Positions 12,217 to 32,820 of a stretch of DNA of 36,377 nt are shown here, piece by piece. The notes below the pieces were generated by a model. It was not told the origin of the DNA, made no database searches, and saw nothing but the letters and a program-made list of their open reading frames with translations. This stretch comes from a virus. The position numbers were made by a program, and so were the translations under genes. Position 1 is the stretch's first letter. The number at the start of each line of letters is the position of its first letter. The DNA lies in IMG/VR virus record IMGVR_UViG_3300031857_000616, positions 1 through 36,377 of that record; one strand, given 5' to 3'.

Positions 12217-12302
12217 GTCGTAAGTGGTTGAAAATACTGGACTTACGACTTGCCGGCCCCGCCGCCTTGCTCCTAACCCTTTGGGGCGTAAGGGTTTAGG
12301 AG
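12217..12302. repeat. Double-hairpin repeat, copy 2
   Basis: GTCGTAAGT/ACTTACGAC (12217-12249), linker GCCGGCCCCGCCGCC, then CTCCTAACCCTT/AAGGGTTTAGGAG (12270-12302). Its second hairpin contains the end of the phosphoribosyltransferase gene. Confidence 0.85.
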
Positions 12303-12788
12303 GCTCATGTTGTAGTCTTTTTCAAATAATTTGATATTTTTTAATGTATAAGCACATTCATCTGGGATATAACAATAAAGTCCTACACACCTTGCCCTTT
12401 CATATTCGCGTGAGATAGTCCGGTTAATATGCCTAAGAGTATCGCCACTACATATAAGATCATCAAGGATGATATACCTAAAAGGTGCAACTCCCTCCAT
12501 AGTGAATTCTGAATATCTTTTTTCTGAATCTTTTCTAACAATCAGAATATGTTTATCCAGCAGTTCCGCCACTTGTGGAACAACCATGAGGCCACTGGTA
12601 CCACAACAAGCAATAGTATCAAACTGATTAGAGATTTTTCTTAAATCACATACAGCTTTGATAATAATCTTATTACGTTCCCGATGATTTAATACTCTGC
12701 AAGTATGGTCAGCTCCTTGAATATACTGTCCGTCGTTTGTTTTACGGAAGTCTTCAACATCGTGCCAATTTTTAGTGATATCTTGCAT
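12273..12788 (-). CDS. Phosphoribosyltransferase-fold protein
   Basis: 171 aa. The PRPP-binding signature is RYIILDDLICSGDTL (residues 104-118), and ACCGTSG (60-66) fits the upstream pyrophosphate loop. N-terminus is basic and His-rich. It would be a type I PRTase acting on a nucleobase or PRPP; the substrate hood is not recognisable, so the exact reaction is unknown. The last codons lie inside the double-hairpin repeat. The tRNA-like gene at 12795-12885 ends only a few bases upstream of its start codon, so both may come from one transcript. Confidence 0.85.
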   Translation of the reverse strand: MQDITKNWHDVEDFRKTNDGQYIQGADHTCRVLNHRERNKIIIKAVCDLRKISNQFDTIACCGTSGLMVVPQVAELLDKHILIVRKDSEKRYSEFTMEGVAPFRYIILDDLICSGDTLRHINRTISREYERARCVGLYCYIPDECAYTLKNIKLFEKDYNMSLLNPYAPKG

Positions 12789-13100: not shown

Positions 13101-13101
13101 G

Positions 13102-13174
13102 TGGGCCCCCAGGGACTCGAACCCTGAACCTAAGAGTTAAAAGCTCCTTGCTCTGCCAATTGAGCTAGAGGCCC
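13102..13174 (-). tRNA. tRNA-Lys (UUU)
   Basis: Acceptor GGGCCTC/GGGGCCC, anticodon stem AGGAG/CTCTT with loop CTTTTAA, T-loop TTCGAGT. CCA is not encoded. Confidence 0.92.
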
Positions 13175-13179
13175 GAACC

Positions 13180-13347
13180 TTATTCTACAACAGAGTAACT
13201 ATAACTATCCACATCATCCATATAAGCAGCCTGTACCCTGTCAAATACATCCATATAATTAAAGTCAAGACTATCCATAGATATAATCAAATCGGTCAAA
13301 CTCTGTCCTTCACTATTAAGAATATCATAGATATGAACATTCTTCAT
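13180..13347 (-). CDS. 55-aa small acidic protein
   Basis: MKNVHIYDILNSEGQSLTDL, then a Tyr/Asp-rich end. GGAGAG ribosome site and own promoter at 13368-13396. Lies between tRNA-Lys and tRNA-Glu. Function unknown. Confidence 0.65.
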   Translation of the reverse strand: MKNVHIYDILNSEGQSLTDLIISMDSLDFNYMDVFDRVQAAYMDDVDSYSYSVVE

Positions 13348-13367
13348 CTATTCTCTCCTTTTTGATT

Positions 13368-13396
13368 ATCATACCGTGTCCGAATCATTCTGTCAA
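13368..13396 (-). promoter_or_regulatory. Leftward promoter
   Basis: TTGACA, 17 bases, TATGAT, immediately downstream of tRNA-Glu. Confidence 0.7.
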
Positions 13397-13397
13397 T

Positions 13398-13467
13398 AGC
13401 CCTATGGAGAATCGAACTCCAATCTCCACCTTGAAAGGGTGGCGTCATAGCCATTAGACTATAGGGC
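13398..13467 (-). tRNA. tRNA-Glu (UUC)
   Basis: Acceptor GCCCTAT/ATAGGGC, anticodon stem CCACC/GGTGG with loop CTTTCAA, T-loop TTCGATT. Short D-arm (GTC/GAC). Confidence 0.9.
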
Positions 13468-13502
13468 CACAAACCATCGTAACTCTAACGTCAGCCTCCG
13501 AA

Positions 13503-13576
13503 TAGGGCGTGTAGGAGTCGAACCTACCTTTTGAATACCTTATAAGAGTATGTGCAACTACCGGCTGCAACGCCCC
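13503..13576 (-). tRNA. tRNA-Ile (UAU)
   Basis: Acceptor GGGGCGT/ACGCCCT, anticodon stem ATACT/GGTAT with loop CTTATAA giving UAU, T-loop TTCGACT. It would read AUA directly instead of the usual lysidine-modified CAU tRNA. Confidence 0.85.
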
Positions 13577-13628
13577 ATGTTTCTTAGATCATACTCTCTT
13601 TATCGGCTGTTGTCAACTACTTCTTTAG

Positions 13629-13715
13629 CGGAATCTGAGGGATTCGAACCCCCGGAGGATTTTAACCCTCGGCGGTTTAGTAAACCGCTGCCTTAAACCA
13701 CTCGGCCAAGATTCC
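13629..13715 (-). tRNA. tRNA-Ser with anticodon ACU
   Basis: Class II tRNA: acceptor GGAATCT/AGATTCC, D-arm GCCGAGTGGTTTAAGGC, anticodon stem GCGGT/ACCGC with loop TTACTAA, long variable arm, T-loop TTCGAAT. The anticodon reads ACU where bacterial AGY-serine tRNAs have GCU; see finding. Confidence 0.88.
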
Positions 13716-13717
13716 AA

Positions 13718-13788
13718 CAAAGGCGGAAGGAATCGAACCTTCATCTACGGTTTTGGAGACCGTCATTCTACCGTTGAACTACGCCAAT
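13718..13788 (-). tRNA. tRNA-Trp (CCA)
   Basis: Anticodon stem ACGGT/ACCGT with loop CTCCAAA, D-arm GTTC/GAAT, T-loop TTCGATT. Acceptor positions 2 and 3 form T-T mismatches with 71 and 70. Confidence 0.85.
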
Positions 13789-13791
13789 AAA

Positions 13792-13863
13792 CTGCCCGAC
13801 TAGGACTCGAACCTAGAACCTACAAATTAACAGTTTGCCGCACTACCATTGTGCTATCGGGCA
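13792..13863 (-). tRNA. tRNA-Asn (GUU)
   Basis: Acceptor TGCCCGA/TCGGGCA, anticodon stem GCAAA/TTTGT with loop CTGTTAA, T-loop TTCGAGT. Confidence 0.92.
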
Positions 13864-13870
13864 ATAACTT

Positions 13871-13908
13871 GGTGTATAAAATGGTAACACACCATACAAG
13901 TATACACC
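13871..13908. repeat. Inverted repeat upstream of the HNH gene
   Basis: GGTGTATA pairs with TATACACC, with an inner ATGGT/ACCAT hairpin. It lies between tRNA-Asn and the HNH start at 13932. It could be an operator or a folded leader; the sequence TTGGTGTATA also occurs ahead of the HNH gene at 18708. Confidence 0.6.
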
Positions 13909-13931
13909 TATTCTACCAAAAGGATTCATAA

Positions 13932-14438
13932 ATGCAAGCCAAACCAAGAAAAAATCGTAGTAAAATATGGTCAATGCCAGTAGATGATTTTAAATTATTA
14001 GTATCACAAAGTTCTACAATAGGCGAAATTTTATCATATTTTAAATTACGAAATAAAGGAGGTAATAGTAATACAGTTAAAAGACGTATTAAATATGAAA
14101 ATATTGATATATCTCATATAAAACTTGGTAAAGGGTCCAATAAAGGTAGAACATTTAAACCCCGAAGATCCAATCAAGAACTTTTTACAAAAACATCTAA
14201 TGCTCAAAACAAAGATCTAAAAAAGAGAATCTTAAAAGATAAACTATTACCATACCAATGTGAGTGTGGTTTATCACATACATGGAATAATAAACCATTA
14301 ATATTACAACTAGATCATATCAATGGAAATCCACAAGATAATAGGCTATCAAATTTACGATTTCTATGCCCAAACTGTCACAGTCAAACAGAAACATATG
14401 CTTCAAAAACTAGATGCCCGGCTAGGAGTCGAACCTAG
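13932..14438 (+). CDS. HNH homing endonuclease in the tRNA cluster
   Basis: 168 aa. Basic N-terminal half with an HTH-like stretch (LVSQSSTIGEILSYFKL), then the HNH core CECG...LQLDHINGNPQDNRLSNLRFLCPNCHSQTETY, with CxC and CPNC zinc ligands. Rightward, opposing the tRNA genes. The last eight codons and the stop lie in the antisense of the tRNA-Gln 3' half, so the insertion or later drift used the tRNA gene for its stop codon. Confidence 0.88.
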   Translation: MQAKPRKNRSKIWSMPVDDFKLLVSQSSTIGEILSYFKLRNKGGNSNTVKRRIKYENIDISHIKLGKGSNKGRTFKPRRSNQELFTKTSNAQNKDLKKRILKDKLLPYQCECGLSHTWNNKPLILQLDHINGNPQDNRLSNLRFLCPNCHSQTETYASKTRCPARSRT

Positions 14439-14486
14439 AACCCGCTGGTCCAAAGCCAGCTGCTCTACCAATTAAGCTACCGGGCA
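14414..14486 (-). tRNA. tRNA-Gln (UUG)
   Basis: Acceptor TGCCCGG/CCGGGCA, anticodon stem GCTGG/CCAGC with loop CTTTGGA, T-loop TTCGACT. Overlaps the HNH gene end on the other strand. Confidence 0.9.
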
Positions 14487-14490
14487 ATTA

Positions 14491-14700
14491 TTATTTATCT
14501 CTATGAGAACCACTATCTTTCCTACTATCTCTCAAATACTTAGCCGCCTCTATCATCCAATATCCCATTTTTTCAATTTTATCTGCTTCTTTACCAGTAA
14601 GGTATGATGCAGTATGAATAAAAATATACTCTATCTTACCTTTAGATACTATATCTAGTACCCCAACTGTACTATCAATAAATTGTTCTGGTTTTTTCAT
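14491..14700 (-). CDS. 69-aa hypothetical protein
   Basis: MKKPEQFIDSTVGVLDIVSK, then helices to SGSHRDK. The ATG at 14700 lies five bases after the 3' end of tRNA-Thr with no ribosome site, so tRNA 3' processing would leave a nearly leaderless mRNA. Function unknown. Confidence 0.65.
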   Translation of the reverse strand: MKKPEQFIDSTVGVLDIVSKGKIEYIFIHTASYLTGKEADKIEKMGYWMIEAAKYLRDSRKDSGSHRDK

Positions 14701-14705
14701 ATCTA

Positions 14706-14777
14706 AGCCCACAGAGGGAATTGAACCCCCATCCGATGATTACAAATCAACTGTAATAGCCATTATACTATGCGGGC
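14706..14777 (-). tRNA. tRNA-Thr (UGU)
   Basis: Acceptor GCCCGCA/TGTGGGC, anticodon stem GTTGA/TCATC with one T-T mismatch, loop TTTGTAA, T-loop TTCAATT. Confidence 0.85.
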
Positions 14778-17063: not shown

Positions 17064-17118
17064 AGAAGCTCACAAGCTTTTAAGAATTGTTCGGTAGCTT
17101 CTGCGTGATTATTCATAA

Positions 17119-17190
17119 TAGCCCCAAGAGGAATCGAACCTCTAATCACTGCTTAGAAGGCAGTTGTTATGTCCATTTAACTATGGGGCC
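17119..17190 (-). tRNA. tRNA-Arg (UCU)
   Basis: Acceptor GGCCCCA/TGGGGCT, anticodon stem ACTGC/GCAGT with loop CTTCTAA, T-loop TTCGATT. Stands alone with its own promoter. Confidence 0.92.
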
Positions 17191-17196
17191 ATAATA

Positions 17197-18707: not shown

Positions 18708-19172
18708 ATGTCAATACCAGAAACGAAAGTCTGTGCAAAATGCAAGATAGAAAAATCGGCTAATGAATATAGTATAGTTAAAACAAAAAGAGGTAAATAT
18801 AATCCTCATTTAAGTAGCCGTTGTAAATTATGCAGAGCGGAGGACCAAACCAAACACCGCAAACCATACGATTCAGATTATGCTCTATCTTGGAAGTCTA
18901 AAAATCCGGATAAAGTTAAACAATACCAAAAAGATATCTATCAAAAAAGAAAGTTACGTTGGGAAAACTTTATGAAAACACAAAAATGTAGTAGATGCGG
19001 CATATCTGATTATCGAGTCTTACAATGGCATCATATTGATCCATCAACTAAAACTATGACAATAGGCGCCCAAGCAAGACAAGGAAAATGGAATCAAATC
19101 ATGGAAGAAGTCAAAAAATGTATTTGCGTCTGTGCTAATTGTCATTTTATTCTTCATTCTGAAGAAAATTAA
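18708..19172 (+). CDS. HNH endonuclease
   Basis: 154 aa. N-terminal CAKC (9-12) and RCKLC (39-42) zinc pair, basic middle, CSRC (94-97), catalytic WHHID (107-111) and terminal CANCH. AAGGA ribosome site. Rightward, inserted among leftward genes, and convergent with 19173-19340 with no spacing between the stop codons. Confidence 0.87.
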   Translation: MSIPETKVCAKCKIEKSANEYSIVKTKRGKYNPHLSSRCKLCRAEDQTKHRKPYDSDYALSWKSKNPDKVKQYQKDIYQKRKLRWENFMKTQKCSRCGISDYRVLQWHHIDPSTKTMTIGAQARQGKWNQIMEEVKKCICVCANCHFILHSEEN

Positions 19173-19359: not shown

Positions 19360-19387
19360 ATTATACCATTCTTTATCGGTAAGTCAA
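19360..19387 (-). promoter_or_regulatory. Leftward promoter with CGAT spacer motif
   Basis: TTGACT, 16-base spacer TACCGATAAAGAATGG, TATAAT. Begins where the large RNA ends. Confidence 0.85.
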
Positions 19388-19989
19388 GTACCACCACACT
19401 GATAGTTTTACGAAGAATACGTGGTACTGTATTGTCTTCAACCTCAAGGTTTTACCTTATCTAAGGAAACTATCAGCAGAGTTGTAACCAGCGGAACTTT
19501 TTACGCCCCAGTTCCTATAACCCACCAATACCCCGATATTATGAACCCTTGGAGCAAGGTAAACACTGGTGGAAACCGCCCACGGAAACCTCCCTGTAAC
19601 CGGATGAACTGCTAGCATCATGTTCCGGTTAGTCTGGCTCTTGGTGACGGTTACTGGTTGTATTGTATATGGCAACGTTTTTAGCCTATCACAGAGGATG
19701 GGAAGGGCGAACGTTTTTAATCCTAACCTATTATCTAGGAACCATAATAATCATCGTGGTGAGGATGCCATCCCCCATAGATTGGTACTTCTATCTAACG
19801 TATAACTCCGTTAGCAACCCCACGCTGCATAACAGCCGTAGGTTTATCGAAATAGGTTATCCCAATCTAGTCCCGCCGCATGGACCCACGAAAGTTTGTC
19901 ATAGTACGCTAGGTTTAGTGCTGCTTCTCTATCCTAGCACGGCTTAGTATGATGTTATCTCTGGCACTTAACCGCTATGTTTGTATTGT
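19388..19989 (-). ncRNA. Candidate large structured non-coding RNA (about 600 nt)
   Basis: Own promoter at 19996-20023, no ORF with a ribosome site on either strand, and dense perfect stems: AACCTATT/AATAGGTT closing 19725-19858; AACCGGA/TCCGGTT 19598-19630; GCTAGG/CCTAGC 19908-19938; GGAACT/AGTTCC 19493-19515; TAACG/CGTTA 19796-19813; CCTT/AAGG 19547-19559. At the 3' end CTGATAGTTT (19399-19408) pairs with AAACTATCAG (19467-19476), crossing GTACCAC/GTGGTAC (19388-19427): a pseudoknot. The word AACGTTTTTA occurs twice (19674, 19710). Size, phage context and nearby tRNA genes recall GOLLD and ROOL RNAs, but I cannot confirm a family. Confidence 0.72.
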
Positions 19990-19995
19990 GTCACC

Positions 19996-20023
19996 AATAT
20001 AGCATACGTTCTTGGTTTGTCAA
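19996..20023 (-). promoter_or_regulatory. Promoter of the large RNA
   Basis: TTGACA, 16 bases, TATATT. No ribosome site or ORF follows. Confidence 0.8.
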
Positions 20024-20064
20024 GCGTACAACACCGAATGAATCGGATTTTCGTTGGTGACTAG

Positions 20065-20166
20065 GGGCGAAGGGTGGAATCGAACCACCTCATGGGCATT
20101 TGCTTGCCTACTCCACTGGTCAGTGTCTCGGAACTTCCCACACGCTACCATTACGCTACATTCGCC
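20065..20166 (-). tRNA. tRNA-like gene with anomalous anticodon region
   Basis: 102 nt. Acceptor GGCGAAT(G)/CTTCGCC, D-arm GCGT/GCGT with AATGGTA, T-arm GGTGG/CCACC with TTCGATT loop. No normal anticodon arm: between GTGGG (26-30) and a complementary CCCAT (71-75) lies about 40 nt instead of 7, itself holding CAC/GTG and GGCA/TGCC hairpins. Could be a tRNA with a short insertion, or a tRNA mimic. Transcribed from its own promoter starting about 9 bases upstream. Confidence 0.6.
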
Positions 20167-20181
20167 ATGTCTTACTCTATC

Positions 20182-20209
20182 ATTCTACACTCTATTATCG
20201 GCTTGTCAA
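20182..20209 (-). promoter_or_regulatory. Promoter of the tRNA-like gene, with CGAT motif
   Basis: TTGACA, 16-base spacer AGCCGATAATAGAGTG, TAGAAT. Confidence 0.85.
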
Positions 20210-27957: not shown

Positions 27958-28107
27958 ATGAATATTGACCCCATTATCCCCTCTATTCTCCACATAACTG
28001 CTAAAGAAAATGTGGATATAAATGCTGATTTAACAGCAGAACAGATCAAATCCATAGGCCAACTACTAGAAGAAGCTCATGAAGAAGAAAAAGATTCACA
28101 AAGTTAA
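27958..28107 (+). CDS. 49-aa acidic protein
   Basis: MNIDPIIPSILHITAKENVD, then LTAEQIKSIGQLLEEAHEEE. AGAGGT ribosome site. Overlaps the sigma-like gene by 29 bases and is the first gene of the rightward operon. Function unknown. Confidence 0.65.
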   Translation: MNIDPIIPSILHITAKENVDINADLTAEQIKSIGQLLEEAHEEEKDSQS

Positions 28108-28699
28108 CGAAGACGAATTTCTTAAGATAATTGATATTATCGCCAAAAAATTAGCCTATAAATTCAAGTTTGGATATCATGATTTTGATGATATGAAGCA
28201 ACAGATAAGCATCTTTGCGCTAGAAGGTCTTAAAAATTATGATCATAAAAGACCACTAGAAAACTTCCTTTGGACCCACGTAAGAAATCGCCTCTTCAAC
28301 TATAAAAGAGATAATTACCAAAGGCCCGACAAACCATGTTTAAGCTGCCCCCTTTACGACCCTCACTGTAAAAATAGTAGTAGTGGATGTGTTGAATATA
28401 ATAATAAAAATGACTGTAGTTTGTATTCATCGTGGTTATCAAGAAATAGTACCAAAAAGAACCTTATGCACCTTACAACAATAGACGAAGTTAAAAACTA
28501 CGGGAATGCTTTTAGTAGTGATGATAATTTATTGTTTGATAATATTTCAAATAACGAAATTTTATCCTTAGTAGAACAACATCTTATGGGCGAAGAAAGA
28601 TCCACTTATATTAAGGTAAAGGGTGGCGCCAAGGTTAGTAAGGCAGACATGGACAAGCTAGTTGAAACCATAAGGGAGATAATAAGACTTCATGGCTAA
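28079..28699 (+). CDS. Phage sigma-like transcription factor
   Basis: 206 aa. Residues 33-80, FGYHDFDDMKQQISIFALEG and ENFLWTHVRNRLFNYKRDNY, fit sigma region 2 (core binding and -10 recognition). Next comes an unusual Cys-rich insert (Cys 87, 90, 97, 104, 113) that may bind zinc, then a helical C-terminus in place of a clear region 4. It probably redirects host RNA polymerase to late phage promoters, like T4 gp55, but this is inference. Confidence 0.75.
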   Translation: MKKKKIHKVNEDEFLKIIDIIAKKLAYKFKFGYHDFDDMKQQISIFALEGLKNYDHKRPLENFLWTHVRNRLFNYKRDNYQRPDKPCLSCPLYDPHCKNSSSGCVEYNNKNDCSLYSSWLSRNSTKKNLMHLTTIDEVKNYGNAFSSDDNLLFDNISNNEILSLVEQHLMGEERSTYIKVKGGAKVSKADMDKLVETIREIIRLHG

Positions 28700-30349: not shown

Positions 30350-30821
30350 CTTCACAATCATAGTTGACACAAGAGAACAACTTCCTTGGGAATTTGGTTT
30401 TCATGTAACCAGCAAAAAGAAGCTGGATACTGGAGATTATAGTATGGAAGGATTCGAAAGTCTTTTTACAATAGAGCGTAAGCGCAGCGTTAGTGAGATA
30501 GCAAATAATATTACAGAAAGTCGATTCAAAGATGTTCTGGATCGTATGAGCAAAATCCCTCACAGTTTTATGTTGATGGAATTTGGTATAGATGAAATTT
30601 ATAATTTCCCGGTCGGCAGCGACATCCCCAAGAAAATGTGGGATAAGCTAAGAATTAGTGGTAATTATATTATGAAATATTTAGTAGAGGCCCAACTTAA
30701 TCATAATATTCACATACTTTTTTGCGGAGATGCAGAAACAGCAGAGCGTACAGCAGTAGGTATTATGAAAAGAATTTACGAGAAATATGGAAAACAAACA
30801 GAAAACAATAACAACGTTTGA
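30333..30821 (+). CDS. ERCC4-type nuclease
   Basis: 162 aa. VDTREQLPW (Asp12), LDTGDYS (34-36) and FTIERKRSVSE (ERK 48-50) form the XPF/MUS81-type ERCC4 nuclease core GDx..ERKx3(D); the last Asp is replaced by Ser/Glu here. No helicase or HhH2 domain follows, so it is a stand-alone nuclease domain. Placement between packaging genes suggests branch trimming or genome-end processing before packaging. Confidence 0.85.
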   Translation: MPKQDNFTIIVDTREQLPWEFGFHVTSKKKLDTGDYSMEGFESLFTIERKRSVSEIANNITESRFKDVLDRMSKIPHSFMLMEFGIDEIYNFPVGSDIPKKMWDKLRISGNYIMKYLVEAQLNHNIHILFCGDAETAERTAVGIMKRIYEKYGKQTENNNNV

Positions 30822-32820
30822 TGATGCTTGGCTAGGTCTAGGTGATCTTAGTCAAATAGTTATCGACCACAACCCTATGATTGGTCGAAACAAGGAAGAT
30901 ATAGAAAATCCAGACCTACATCTATTGAGACTGTTGAGAGATCCCAAATACTTCGGATCTACTGCTAAACTATTATTCAATATAGAACTTCACCCTATAC
31001 AGATAGCTATCTTGCAAGAATTTTGGCTAAGACCATTTCCTATGTTCATTGCATCTCGTGGTTTTGGTAAGTCGTTCTTAATGGCTATGTATTGTACATT
31101 AAAATGTATTTTGGTACCCGGAACAAAGATTGTTGTAGTAGGTGCTGCTTTTAGACAGAGCAAAATTATTTTCGAATATATGGAAACGCTATGGAGAAAT
31201 AGCCCTATCCTAAGAAGTGTTTTTAATGGTAATGATGATGGTCCACGACGTGACGTAGATAGATGTACTATGAGGCTTGGCGAAAGTTGGACAATCGCTG
31301 TTCCTATGGGCGATGGTAGTAAAATTAGAGGCTTAAGAGCGCATATTATTATTGCTGACGAATTTGCCTCTATTTCTCCTGATATTTATGAGACGGTAGT
31401 TTCAGGTTTCGCTGCCGTATCTGCTAGTCCAATACAAAATGTTAAAGAAGAAGCTAAAAAGAAAGCGATGACAGCAGTAGGATTATGGAATGATGAATTA
31501 GAAGCAGTGCAAATTAAAAAGGGTAACCAAGCTATCATAGCCGGTACTGCTGACTATAGTTTTAAGCATTTTGCTACTTATTGGAAAAGATATCAAGCTA
31601 TCATTAATAGTCAAGGAGATAAGCAAAAGCTGGAAGAAATTTTTAAGGGAGAAGTACCAGATAGTTTTAACTGGAAAGACTATAGTATAGTACGCATACC
31701 ATATGAAATTATTCCTAAAGGCTTCATGGATGACAAACAAGTTAGTCGTGCCAAAGCTACTATTCATACCGGCATATATAATATGGAATATGCGGCGTGT
31801 TTTACAGAAGACAGTGACGGTTTTTTCCGTCGATCACTAATAGAAAGTTGTGTGGTACATGAAAGCAAACCAATTGTGGTTAATGGTACTCCTGTTTTGT
31901 TTGATGTTAGTACCAAAGGAAACCCAGACCTTCAATACATTTATGGCATTGACCCAGCTTCTGAAAAGGACAATTTTAGTATCGTAATATTAGAGGTTCA
32001 TAAAGATCATAGTCGGCTAGTATATTGTTGGACCACTAATCGTAATAATTTTAAAGATCGTCAAAAAACTGGATTAATTAACGAATATGATTTTTACGGT
32101 TTCTGCGCTCGTAAGATACGCAACCTAATGAAAGTATTCCCTTGTGCTCGTATTGGATTAGATGCTCAGGGTGGTGGTGTGGCAATTGAAGAAGCATTAC
32201 ACGATCCAGGCAAACTAGAAGATGGTGAATCCTTAATATGGCCGGTTATAGACATTAATAAACCCAAAGAAACCGATGATCAGCAAGGATTACATATATT
32301 GGAATTAGTACAGTTTGCAAGGGCTGATTGGACGGCACAAGCTAATCACGGATTAAGAAAAGACCTAGAAGATAAAGTATTACTTTTTCCAAGATTTGAT
32401 CAAGTCAGTTTGGCTCTTGCTTTAGACAAAGAAGGTAAAGATATTATGTCTGCGGATCTTATGAATCTTTACGACAGTGAAAGCGAATGTATTTTAGAGA
32501 TTGAAGAGCTAAAGAATGAATTGACCACTATTGTTATGACACAAACTAGTACTGGACCTAACGCTAGAGATAGGTGGGATACCCCAGAAGTTAAGCTGCC
32601 TAATGGAAAAAAGGGAAAACTAAGAAAAGATAGATATAGCGCATTAATAATCGCTAATATGTTAGCTAGACAATTAAGTAGAACTTTAGAGCCAACTACT
32701 TTTGAGGTTATTGGTAATAATCTAGATATAGTAGAAAAGAAAGAAGGCCAAATGTATAAGGGGCCAAACTGGTTTATTGATGGAGCAAATGCTAACATAT
32801 ATGGTGGAATTTATAGATAA
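30787..32820 (+). CDS. terL: Terminase large subunit
   Basis: 677 aa. Walker A SRGFGKS (90-96), Walker B HIIIADE (186-192) with the catalytic Glu, and C-terminal RNase H-like nuclease with YGIDPAS (Asp389) and RIGLDAQGG (Asp459). The motor translocates DNA into the prohead and cuts it. Length is in the normal range for T4-like and giant-phage terminases. Overlaps the ERCC4 gene by 35 bases. Confidence 0.95.
   Translation: MENKQKTITTFDDAWLGLGDLSQIVIDHNPMIGRNKEDIENPDLHLLRLLRDPKYFGSTAKLLFNIELHPIQIAILQEFWLRPFPMFIASRGFGKSFLMAMYCTLKCILVPGTKIVVVGAAFRQSKIIFEYMETLWRNSPILRSVFNGNDDGPRRDVDRCTMRLGESWTIAVPMGDGSKIRGLRAHIIIADEFASISPDIYETVVSGFAAVSASPIQNVKEEAKKKAMTAVGLWNDELEAVQIKKGNQAIIAGTADYSFKHFATYWKRYQAIINSQGDKQKLEEIFKGEVPDSFNWKDYSIVRIPYEIIPKGFMDDKQVSRAKATIHTGIYNMEYAACFTEDSDGFFRRSLIESCVVHESKPIVVNGTPVLFDVSTKGNPDLQYIYGIDPASEKDNFSIVILEVHKDHSRLVYCWTTNRNNFKDRQKTGLINEYDFYGFCARKIRNLMKVFPCARIGLDAQGGGVAIEEALHDPGKLEDGESLIWPVIDINKPKETDDQQGLHILELVQFARADWTAQANHGLRKDLEDKVLLFPRFDQVSLALALDKEGKDIMSADLMNLYDSESECILEIEELKNELTTIVMTQTSTGPNARDRWDTPEVKLPNGKKGKLRKDRYSALIIANMLARQLSRTLEPTTFEVIGNNLDIVEKKEGQMYKGPNWFIDGANANIYGGIYR

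Follow-up and report, generated by a model that had tools for sequence, protein, structure and literature searches.

What kind of molecule, if any, is encoded at positions 19388-19989 of the window, the 36.4-kb stretch of viral DNA (36,377 nucleotides; IMG/VR record IMGVR_UViG_3300031857_000616) analysed here? A sequence-only reading had proposed a large structured RNA, transcribed leftward in a phage region with tRNA genes and possibly representing a new class, and this proposal is supported by homologues and by covariation. The observation as a whole is confirmed and extends further than had been drawn, the interval being probably part of a leftward RNA of about 790 nt that comprises, as judged from the sequence, seven separately folding domains, A to G. 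In its predicted anatomy and its relationships alike, the window array almost certainly belongs to a so far uncatalogued family of phage RNAs that are large and modular. The predicted domains form a chain on the minus strand, following a sigma-70-type promoter sequence, and in many arrays of the family short linkers of the AAUACAA type lie between them.

Results

The interval and its surroundings

The four stems quoted in the sequence-only reading are each exact in the sequence, and the repeated word that it pointed out, AACGTTTTTA, is present at 19674 and 19710. Perfect stems of every length counted are more numerous than in dinucleotide-preserving shuffles: 41 vs 21.3 for 6-mers (a count reached by 0 of 200 shuffles), 15 vs 5.5 for 7-mers (3 of 200), 8 vs 1.4 for 8-mers (1 of 200), 3 vs 0.4 for 9-mers (7 of 200) and 1 vs 0.07 for 10-mers (10 of 200). 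The folding energy of the whole 631-nt stretch is unexceptional (z -1.08; 3 of 20 shuffles equally good), so that energy by itself could not have decided the question, and domains A, C, E, F and G taken singly are similarly unremarkable (z -1.1 to -1.8). G+C content is 44-48% in the stretch, 33-36% immediately to its left and 38-46% to its right. ORFs of 61-94 aa are present in the stretch, and the contention that none is a credible reading frame is upheld in 62 homologous arrays, where the median length of the longest ATG ORF is 34.5 aa vs 37.5 aa in shuffled sequence; three of the 62 contain an ATG ORF longer than 65 aa (maximum 109 aa).

The same array occurs at 100% identity inside a 157.7-kb record, in the searched pieces of which it is the sole array. 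Elsewhere in the window are a terminase gene (30787-32820, phrog_2), tRNA genes (13101-14777 and 17118-17191) and many small ORFs. Directly to the left of the array, on the opposite strand, lies an HNH endonuclease gene (18708-19172, plus strand; phrog_2255, E 1.1e-25). Two other window frames gave weak matches far under the curated cut-offs, one sigma-factor-like (28079-28699, plus strand; E 0.0016) and one phosphoribosyltransferase-like (12273-12788, minus strand; E 0.00015). A toxin or defence gene beside the array was sought among seven neighbouring proteins with Pfam and among ten with PADLOC, and none was found in either set; PADLOC returned one weak match, to HamB (11.9 bits, E 0.0099).

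Domain map of the window array

The domains of the window array lie in the order A-B-C-D-E-F-G (Table 1), and the array has the features by which the family is recognised, namely the D helices with their pseudoknot and D placed before F. Of its six junctions, two carry AAUACAA and one more (C-D) carries ACAAAC.

Table 1. Predicted features of the window array, in the direction of the proposed transcript
Feature	Positions	Strand	Basis or detail
Likeliest promoter, TTGACA-16-TAGAAT	20182-20209	-	11 of 12 consensus matches
Domain A, tRNA-like cloverleaf	20066-20165	-	Rfam tRNA 32.5 bits (gathering 29); acceptor 20165-20161/20071-20067; T-stem 20089-20085/20077-20073; AAUGGUA D-loop; UUCGAUU T-loop
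Domain B, hairpin closed by GUCACCAA/UUGGUGAC	19990-20061	-	Closing stem 20061-20054/19997-19990; z -2.90
Linker AAUACAA, B-C junction	19981-19987	-	Sequence
Domain C, variable leader slot, closed by CAUAG/CUAUG	19900-19979	-	Stems 19979-19975/19904-19900 and 19938-19933/19913-19908; z -1.58; 7 HMM hits only
Domain D, core	19755-19890	-	Covariation; free-energy fold of D alone, z -2.66
D helices P1, P2, P3		-	19890-19886/19759-19755; 19885-19882/19873-19870; 19868-19862/19785-19779
D helices P5, P6, P7		-	19844-19841/19819-19816; 19814-19809/19800-19795; 19773-19770/19766-19763
D pseudoknot		-	19860-19856/19806-19802
Domain E, variable middle slot	19668-19746	-	AACGUU stem 19715-19710/19679-19674; z -1.27
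Linker AAUACAA, E-F junction	19658-19664	-	Final two bases overlap F closing stem
Domain F, core	19486-19659	-	Covariation; fold of F alone agrees, energy unexceptional (z -1.11)
F closing stem AACCAG/CUGGUU		-	19659-19654/19491-19486
F helices P2, P4, P3		-	19652-19648/19578-19574; 19571-19567/19527-19523; 19515-19510/19498-19493
F inner hairpin (modelled)		-	19631-19624/19604-19597
Domain G, tail	19388-19476	-	Stem 19476-19467/19408-19399 crossed by pseudoknot 19427-19421/19394-19388
Second promoter, TTGACT-16-TATAAT	19360-19387	-	Immediately past G; serves next small gene
Next small gene		-	Shine-Dalgarno 19353-19347; AUG 19340-19338

Homologues and distribution

The homologues that the sequence-only reading had suggested looking for in viral contigs proved abundant. 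A terminase search gave 560 related stretches, of which 80 were kept. The RNA was clearly matched (E 1e-8 or better) in 12 of 30 terminase-relative records, and in 17 of the 30 at E up to 1. Alignments of these relatives break into blocks, some lacking pieces of 80-90 nt and others carrying different pieces or a different order, which is explained if closed domains follow one another along the RNA, frequently separated by AAUACAA-type linkers, as reading of the sequences suggested. Two degenerate patterns, one for D and one for the linker with F, recovered 77 and 83 stretches in viral contigs, scans that are biased toward copies near the words picked. Hits of the iterated HMM profiles numbered 109 for D, 97 for F, 37 for G, 24 for B, 22 for A, 7 for C and 6 for E. 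In all, 110 arrays were assembled, 84 of them non-redundant and drawn from 82 contigs, two contigs being counted twice (L115/L179 and L151/L154) where an array is cut by a record end or a gap.

A related terminase (54-88% identity) is encoded in 41 of the 47 array contigs tested, these being 48 contigs minus one (L219) with neither D nor F and no terminase match, which argues that the RNA is mostly confined to a single phage lineage; the six array contigs without a terminase match may be fragments. The array is not universal in terminase-relative phages: with the D covariance model, 28 of 30 records (18 earlier unmatched and 10 newly searched, many of them fragments) were still negative. Comparison by blastn with named phages yielded nothing useful (one 23-base match, E 0.2), and comparison with plasmids yielded no match. 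Among 13 genome-contig stretches with the D pattern, real D and F domains are present in one, a 4.6-kb contig (L245, RFNS01000242.1) in an Alphaproteobacteria genome bin, which is probably a phage contig placed in a bacterial bin.

Several side observations concern the same lineage. The window subtilase (P0005; 26327-27559, minus strand) has the N-terminus LEQLENKKVLS, and a similar LE-LENKK-LS motif occurs in L075 and L076. Small proteins ending in VPEP followed by a hydrophobic and basic tail are encoded at 11 loci of related phages, some sharing one contig, and VPEPS-tailed small proteins occur in relatives including L119, L136, L181, L185 and L193. Such tails together with the LE-LENKK-LS N-terminus would, we presume, fit Planctomycetota-type hosts; a family-model scan of the subtilase gave no match backing this host motif. 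In three related records (G044, G061 and G077, the contigs of L137, L173 and L200) the terminase frame spans 1024-1036 aa and its match is divided in two, near residue 96 in G044 and G077 and near 178 in G061; the in-frame insertion is possibly an intein. Pistol self-cleaving ribozymes were detected near tRNA genes of related phages and outside the arrays, at 9010-9072 of L192 and 5102-5164 of L194 (52.4 and 51.0 bits; Rfam gathering 34.5).

Covariation in domains D, F and G

Covariation of the stems in homologues was found for D, F and G by shuffle tests and, for D, by permutation on a tree, tests other than R-scape, and it supports both the predicted helices of these domains and the pseudoknots of D and G. 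For D, 58 of 78 full-length copies were aligned (A1), some of the 20 excluded being near-duplicates and the others chiefly the most variable copies. In this set 97.2% of cells pair, pseudoknot included, 17 of 35 pairs have changed on both sides, and the covariation score (0.259 vs 0.129) is reached by 0 of 500 shuffles. The pseudoknot pairs in 100% of cells, one of its pairs being C-G in 33 copies and G-C in 25. Pairing is 93.9% over all 78 copies and 89.0% (575 of 646 cells) in the 20 excluded copies when these are aligned separately.

A first RNAalifold consensus for the 78 D copies was poor (-14.9), owing to inner hairpins swapped between copies, and the helices that were tested were then drawn manually on the alignment. 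When partners were slid by 1-3 columns pairing fell to 33-39%, a control biased in favour of the helices, since they were tested on the alignment on which they had been drawn. More independent supports come from free-energy folding, from the tree and from detection of a remote copy. The fold predicted for the window D alone recovers every nested helix. A tree of the unpaired columns alone requires 47 double compensations (changes between standard pairs), whereas 200 permutations of partners average 2.8 and never exceed 15. Finally, the D covariance model finds a diverged D in a record (G006) where nucleotide searches gave F only, with an E-value of 2.2e-11 under rough calibration.

In F, 95.0% of cells pair among 60 of 71 copies (A2), with 0 of 500 shuffles reaching the score, and 94.4% over all 71; the 11 excluded copies pair in 183 of 202 cells (90.6%). 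Its weakest helix is P4 (83.1%), and P2 is without a double change. The quoted 7-bp stem 19598-19604/19624-19630 reappears in the predicted free-energy fold of F. For G, the alignment (A4) holds 12 of the 23 copies in A3, namely those without a tRNA-like insertion, one of 24 copies being unaligned; 99.5% of cells pair, and of 500 shuffles none attains the covariation score, 6 reach the double-change pair count and 215 the number of pair types, this last measure being no better than in shuffles. This covariation supports as a pseudoknot the 7-bp stem that the sequence-only reading had drawn crossing its 10-bp stem (19399-19408/19467-19476), both of which lie in G.

The proposed 8-bp long-range stem (19725-19732/19851-19858) fared differently. 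It is unsupported, taking bases of the covarying pseudoknot of D (19860-19856), and it would link D to E, yet E is rare (6 E vs 109 D hits). The two AACGTT words pair with each other as the arms of a single stem in E, and both arms change together in relatives, from AACGUU/AACGUU to AGAGUU/AACUCU in L177 and in a second array (L200, by its flank).

Nearly fixed order and exchange of domains

Homologues indicate that the RNA is a chain of exchangeable domains rather than a single fixed fold, an architecture missed at first because seeing it needs homologues. Both D and F are present, D first, in 72 of the 84 non-redundant arrays, and the plain D-F array is the commonest (35 of 84). The order of lettered domains is nearly fixed, A, B or C preceding D, then E, F and G; the exceptions are two D-F-A-B-G arrays and one B-B-C-D-F-D. 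Two D domains occur in some arrays other than that of the window. Many unlettered domains are also hosted in the leader, middle and tail slots. Array length ranges from 258 to 912 nt (median 511) in the 62 of 84 arrays with promoter, D and F, and the sense strand folds more stably than the antisense in 88% of the first 25 of these 62.

Exchange was counted among pairs from 65 of the 84 arrays. Sixty pairs have D domains at least 93% identical; of these, 36 have unrelated upstream DNA, 40 a different middle slot and 45 an F below 75% identity. Conversely, in 63 of 107 pairs whose leaders are at least 93% identical, D is below 80%. Smaller hairpins within F also vary as entire units. Counting flanks, 78 of the 84 non-redundant array regions contain the word AATACAA. 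Of 18067 alignment ends, which are not independent of one another, 23.7% lie no more than 5 nt from ATACAA, compared with 3.3% for random points. Among 157 linker-to-linker segments, 55% have a closing stem of at least 5 pairs vs 29% when shuffled, and 5% vs 3% have one of at least 7 pairs. These comparisons delineate D and F as the common core, with leader, middle and tail slots whose domains are exchanged between phages, the breakpoints being enriched at AAUACAA-type linkers.

Promoter, start and end of the predicted transcript

Of the 73 arrays for which 200 nt or more of upstream DNA is available, 72 have a TTGAC-N-TA...T site upstream. Its distance to the first lettered domain is at most 25 nt in 27 arrays, 26-120 nt (about one leader domain) in 29 and greater in 16, some distant sites being due to chance at a background of 0.73 per kb per strand. 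The promoter picked out in the sequence-only reading (20023-19996) does score 11 of 12 against the consensus, and it may be active in the window phage; as a family feature it does not stand, lying inside domain B, whose closing stem overlaps the -10 element, with a -35 box that is poorly kept in relatives, 4 of 12 distinct sequences (one of them truncated) and 14 of 24 copies having none. An equally good match lies upstream and is better placed (Table 1), so that the RNA probably starts near 20175 and includes the tRNA-like domain. The right boundary at 19989 accordingly gives way, the array reaching past B to A. Small genes and arrays of the lineage often share a similar promoter spacer (TTGACAAGCCGATAATAGA..TAGAAT and the like), as at 20481-20453 and 20209-20182 of the window.

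No terminator-like site was found between 19100 and 20500 of the window, so read-through into the next small gene is possible. In other phages a T-run often follows directly after F.

Likeness to tRNA

Domain A exceeds the Rfam tRNA gathering threshold, yet it has 40 nt where the model has 9 at the anticodon loop. ARAGORN, run on the window, did not call it as a tRNA, and no readable seven-base anticodon loop was found in it. Rfam tRNA hits fall inside arrays at 5 of 20 loci, three of them in the tail after G. A T-arm motif, defined as four pairs around a U[UG][CU][AG]ANU loop, is carried by 20 of the 157 linker-to-linker segments, the expectation from shuffling being 0.95 and the highest count in 100 runs 4; since several of these are A copies or D variants, the independent domain types are fewer, about five to six by eye. 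Six of the 58 D copies carry a UGCGA[AU]U loop on P7, and these are exactly the six with a short P2 loop, as if the two loops touched each other. The Rfam tRNA model does not recognise this D variant, returning a chance-level PVT1 match only, and the tRNA likeness of the variant thus rests on loop, stem and topology. A tRNA-type T-arm with a closing stem is thereby predicted in A, in some D variants and in some middle and tail domains, with A and D appearing to lack an ordinary anticodon arm.

Domain A thus resembles tRNA in its acceptor-like stem and its D-loop and T-loop signatures. The array's tRNA-like domains differ from tRNA in that the 40 nt stand in for the anticodon loop in A, and a large pseudoknotted domain for the arm in D variants, and in that they sit within a longer RNA; some tail and leader copies (for example in L170, L138 and L231) are nearer ordinary tRNAs.

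Comparison with known RNA families

Membership in GOLLD, ROOL, HEARO or OLE, which the sequence-only reading had entertained, found no backing in Rfam. HEARO has a profile in Rfam. So do GOLLD, ROOL and OLE, according to one account (PMC12286853). With Rfam 15 cmscan at gathering thresholds, on the window and 20 array loci, tRNA was the only family matched in arrays, and none of these four models matched; they were absent even at E up to 10 in the window array and the L130 array. Group I and group II intron models likewise gave no match in the window and the 20 loci, nor at E up to 10 in the same two arrays. Chance-level matches below threshold were set aside, namely OrzO-P, PepN thermometer and Ocean-VII in the window array and a miRNA and a CRISPR repeat model in the L130 array. 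A literature survey covering titles and abstract openings, with subscription journals largely outside its scope, yielded no description of such an RNA.

GOLLD is also large and structured and is found in phages and prophages close to tRNA genes, with one conserved and one less conserved region and tRNAs sometimes in the linker (PMC12286853). From it the arrays differ in matching no Rfam model of this kind, in having a two-domain core with exchangeable slots, and in their AAUACAA-type linkers and tRNA-like domains with altered anticodon arms. ROOL is described as about 600 nt long, phage-encoded, rich in multiple pseudoknots and often near tRNA islands (PMC12286853), whereas the arrays lack a match to its Rfam model and show domain shuffling. 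Phage origin near tRNA genes, which holds for the window array, is not specific to those families. Type III antitoxin RNAs (ToxI and relatives) likewise comprise several units that include pseudoknots, and phages are able to escape type III toxin-antitoxin systems; the units of the arrays are mutually unlike, no toxin gene lies nearby among the proteins scanned, and there is no Rfam match. The sole direct repeat of at least 12 nt in 19388-20181 is one 12-nt pair at linkers.

Discussion

The arrays are, in our verdict, predicted transcripts of a new class of large phage RNA that appears to evolve by domain shuffling. Because a common core is joined to quickly replaced, partly tRNA-shaped side domains behind a probable promoter of their own, we suggest that they may be trans-acting scaffolds or decoys. 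Transcription would run leftward from about 20175, and the RNA would fold domain by domain and act in trans, its likeliest work being that of a scaffold or decoy in which each domain docks a protein, the ribosome or another host factor. The tRNA-shaped domains might catch factors that read the acceptor/T-arm elbow, that is, tRNA-processing or tRNA-attacking proteins, and the fast turnover of slots would reflect changing partners across hosts. Toward the explanation as a whole, modular family and trans-acting role together, we lean slightly; the scaffold or decoy step is put forward tentatively.

Other readings account for parts of the same evidence. The arrays might be RNA-only assemblies resembling GOLLD and ROOL, in which D and F would homo-oligomerise through loops or pseudoknots and the other domains would be cargo or decoration. 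Size, phage origin and proximity to tRNA genes match those families, GOLLD has a comparable division into conserved and less conserved regions with tRNAs sometimes in its linker (PMC12286853), and the D and G pseudoknots could be intermolecular; we nonetheless regard this as unlikely, given that no Rfam model is matched in sequence and structure and that shuffled domains, in 62 arrays spanning 258-912 nt, fit poorly with one fixed symmetric cage. Separately closed domains, A-rich linkers and tRNA-like domains in several places would also be expected of a polycistronic precursor, likened to tRNA arrays or type III antitoxin RNAs, that is cut at its linkers by an RNase E-like enzyme, and by RNase P at its tRNA-like domains, to release units acting singly. 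The joint presence of D and F, in that order, in 72 of 84 arrays suggests instead a joined core, and the domains are far longer than type III antitoxin repeats, so that such processing seems rather improbable.

A cis-acting leader or attenuator of the next gene would also suit part of the family, where F or G seems to run straight into a ribosome-binding site and gene: some arrays lead directly into AAUACAAAGGAG or similar and a start codon, others end in the terminator-like CUGGUUUUUU, and the window lacks a terminator between G and the next gene. Downstream genes nevertheless seem, on reading the arrays listed, to differ between phages, and a T-run follows many F copies and a fresh promoter some arrays (as at 19387-19360), making this quite unlikely as the general explanation. 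Finally, the mosaic structure, the tRNA-like pieces and the adjoining HNH endonuclease gene could be taken to mean that no RNA function exists, the locus being a DNA recombination hot spot or a collection of decaying tRNA genes and mobile repeats. Compensatory changes preserve the pairs, however, a covariance model detected a diverged D, and exact word matches to B' and G lie in arrays save for 3 of 32 and 4 of 16 in unrelated sequence; we find this reading scarcely credible.

The arrays could conceivably represent a categorically new kind of genetic element, a possibility that we hold doubtful: a protein-like multidomain RNA with a fixed two-domain core and interchangeable effectors, several of them tRNA-derived, serving a lineage of large phages as polyvalent decoys against host factors that change. 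GOLLD, ROOL and other large structured phage RNAs are ornate, and their function is described as a long-standing puzzle (PMC12286853). To these the present family would add a class in which evolution has already reshuffled the parts. The combinations found in nature hint that D and F are retained while other domains can be exchanged, and the arrays provide a set of variants on hand for structural and functional studies. They suggest that RNA domains may be exchanged at linkers, in ordered slots, much as protein domains are.
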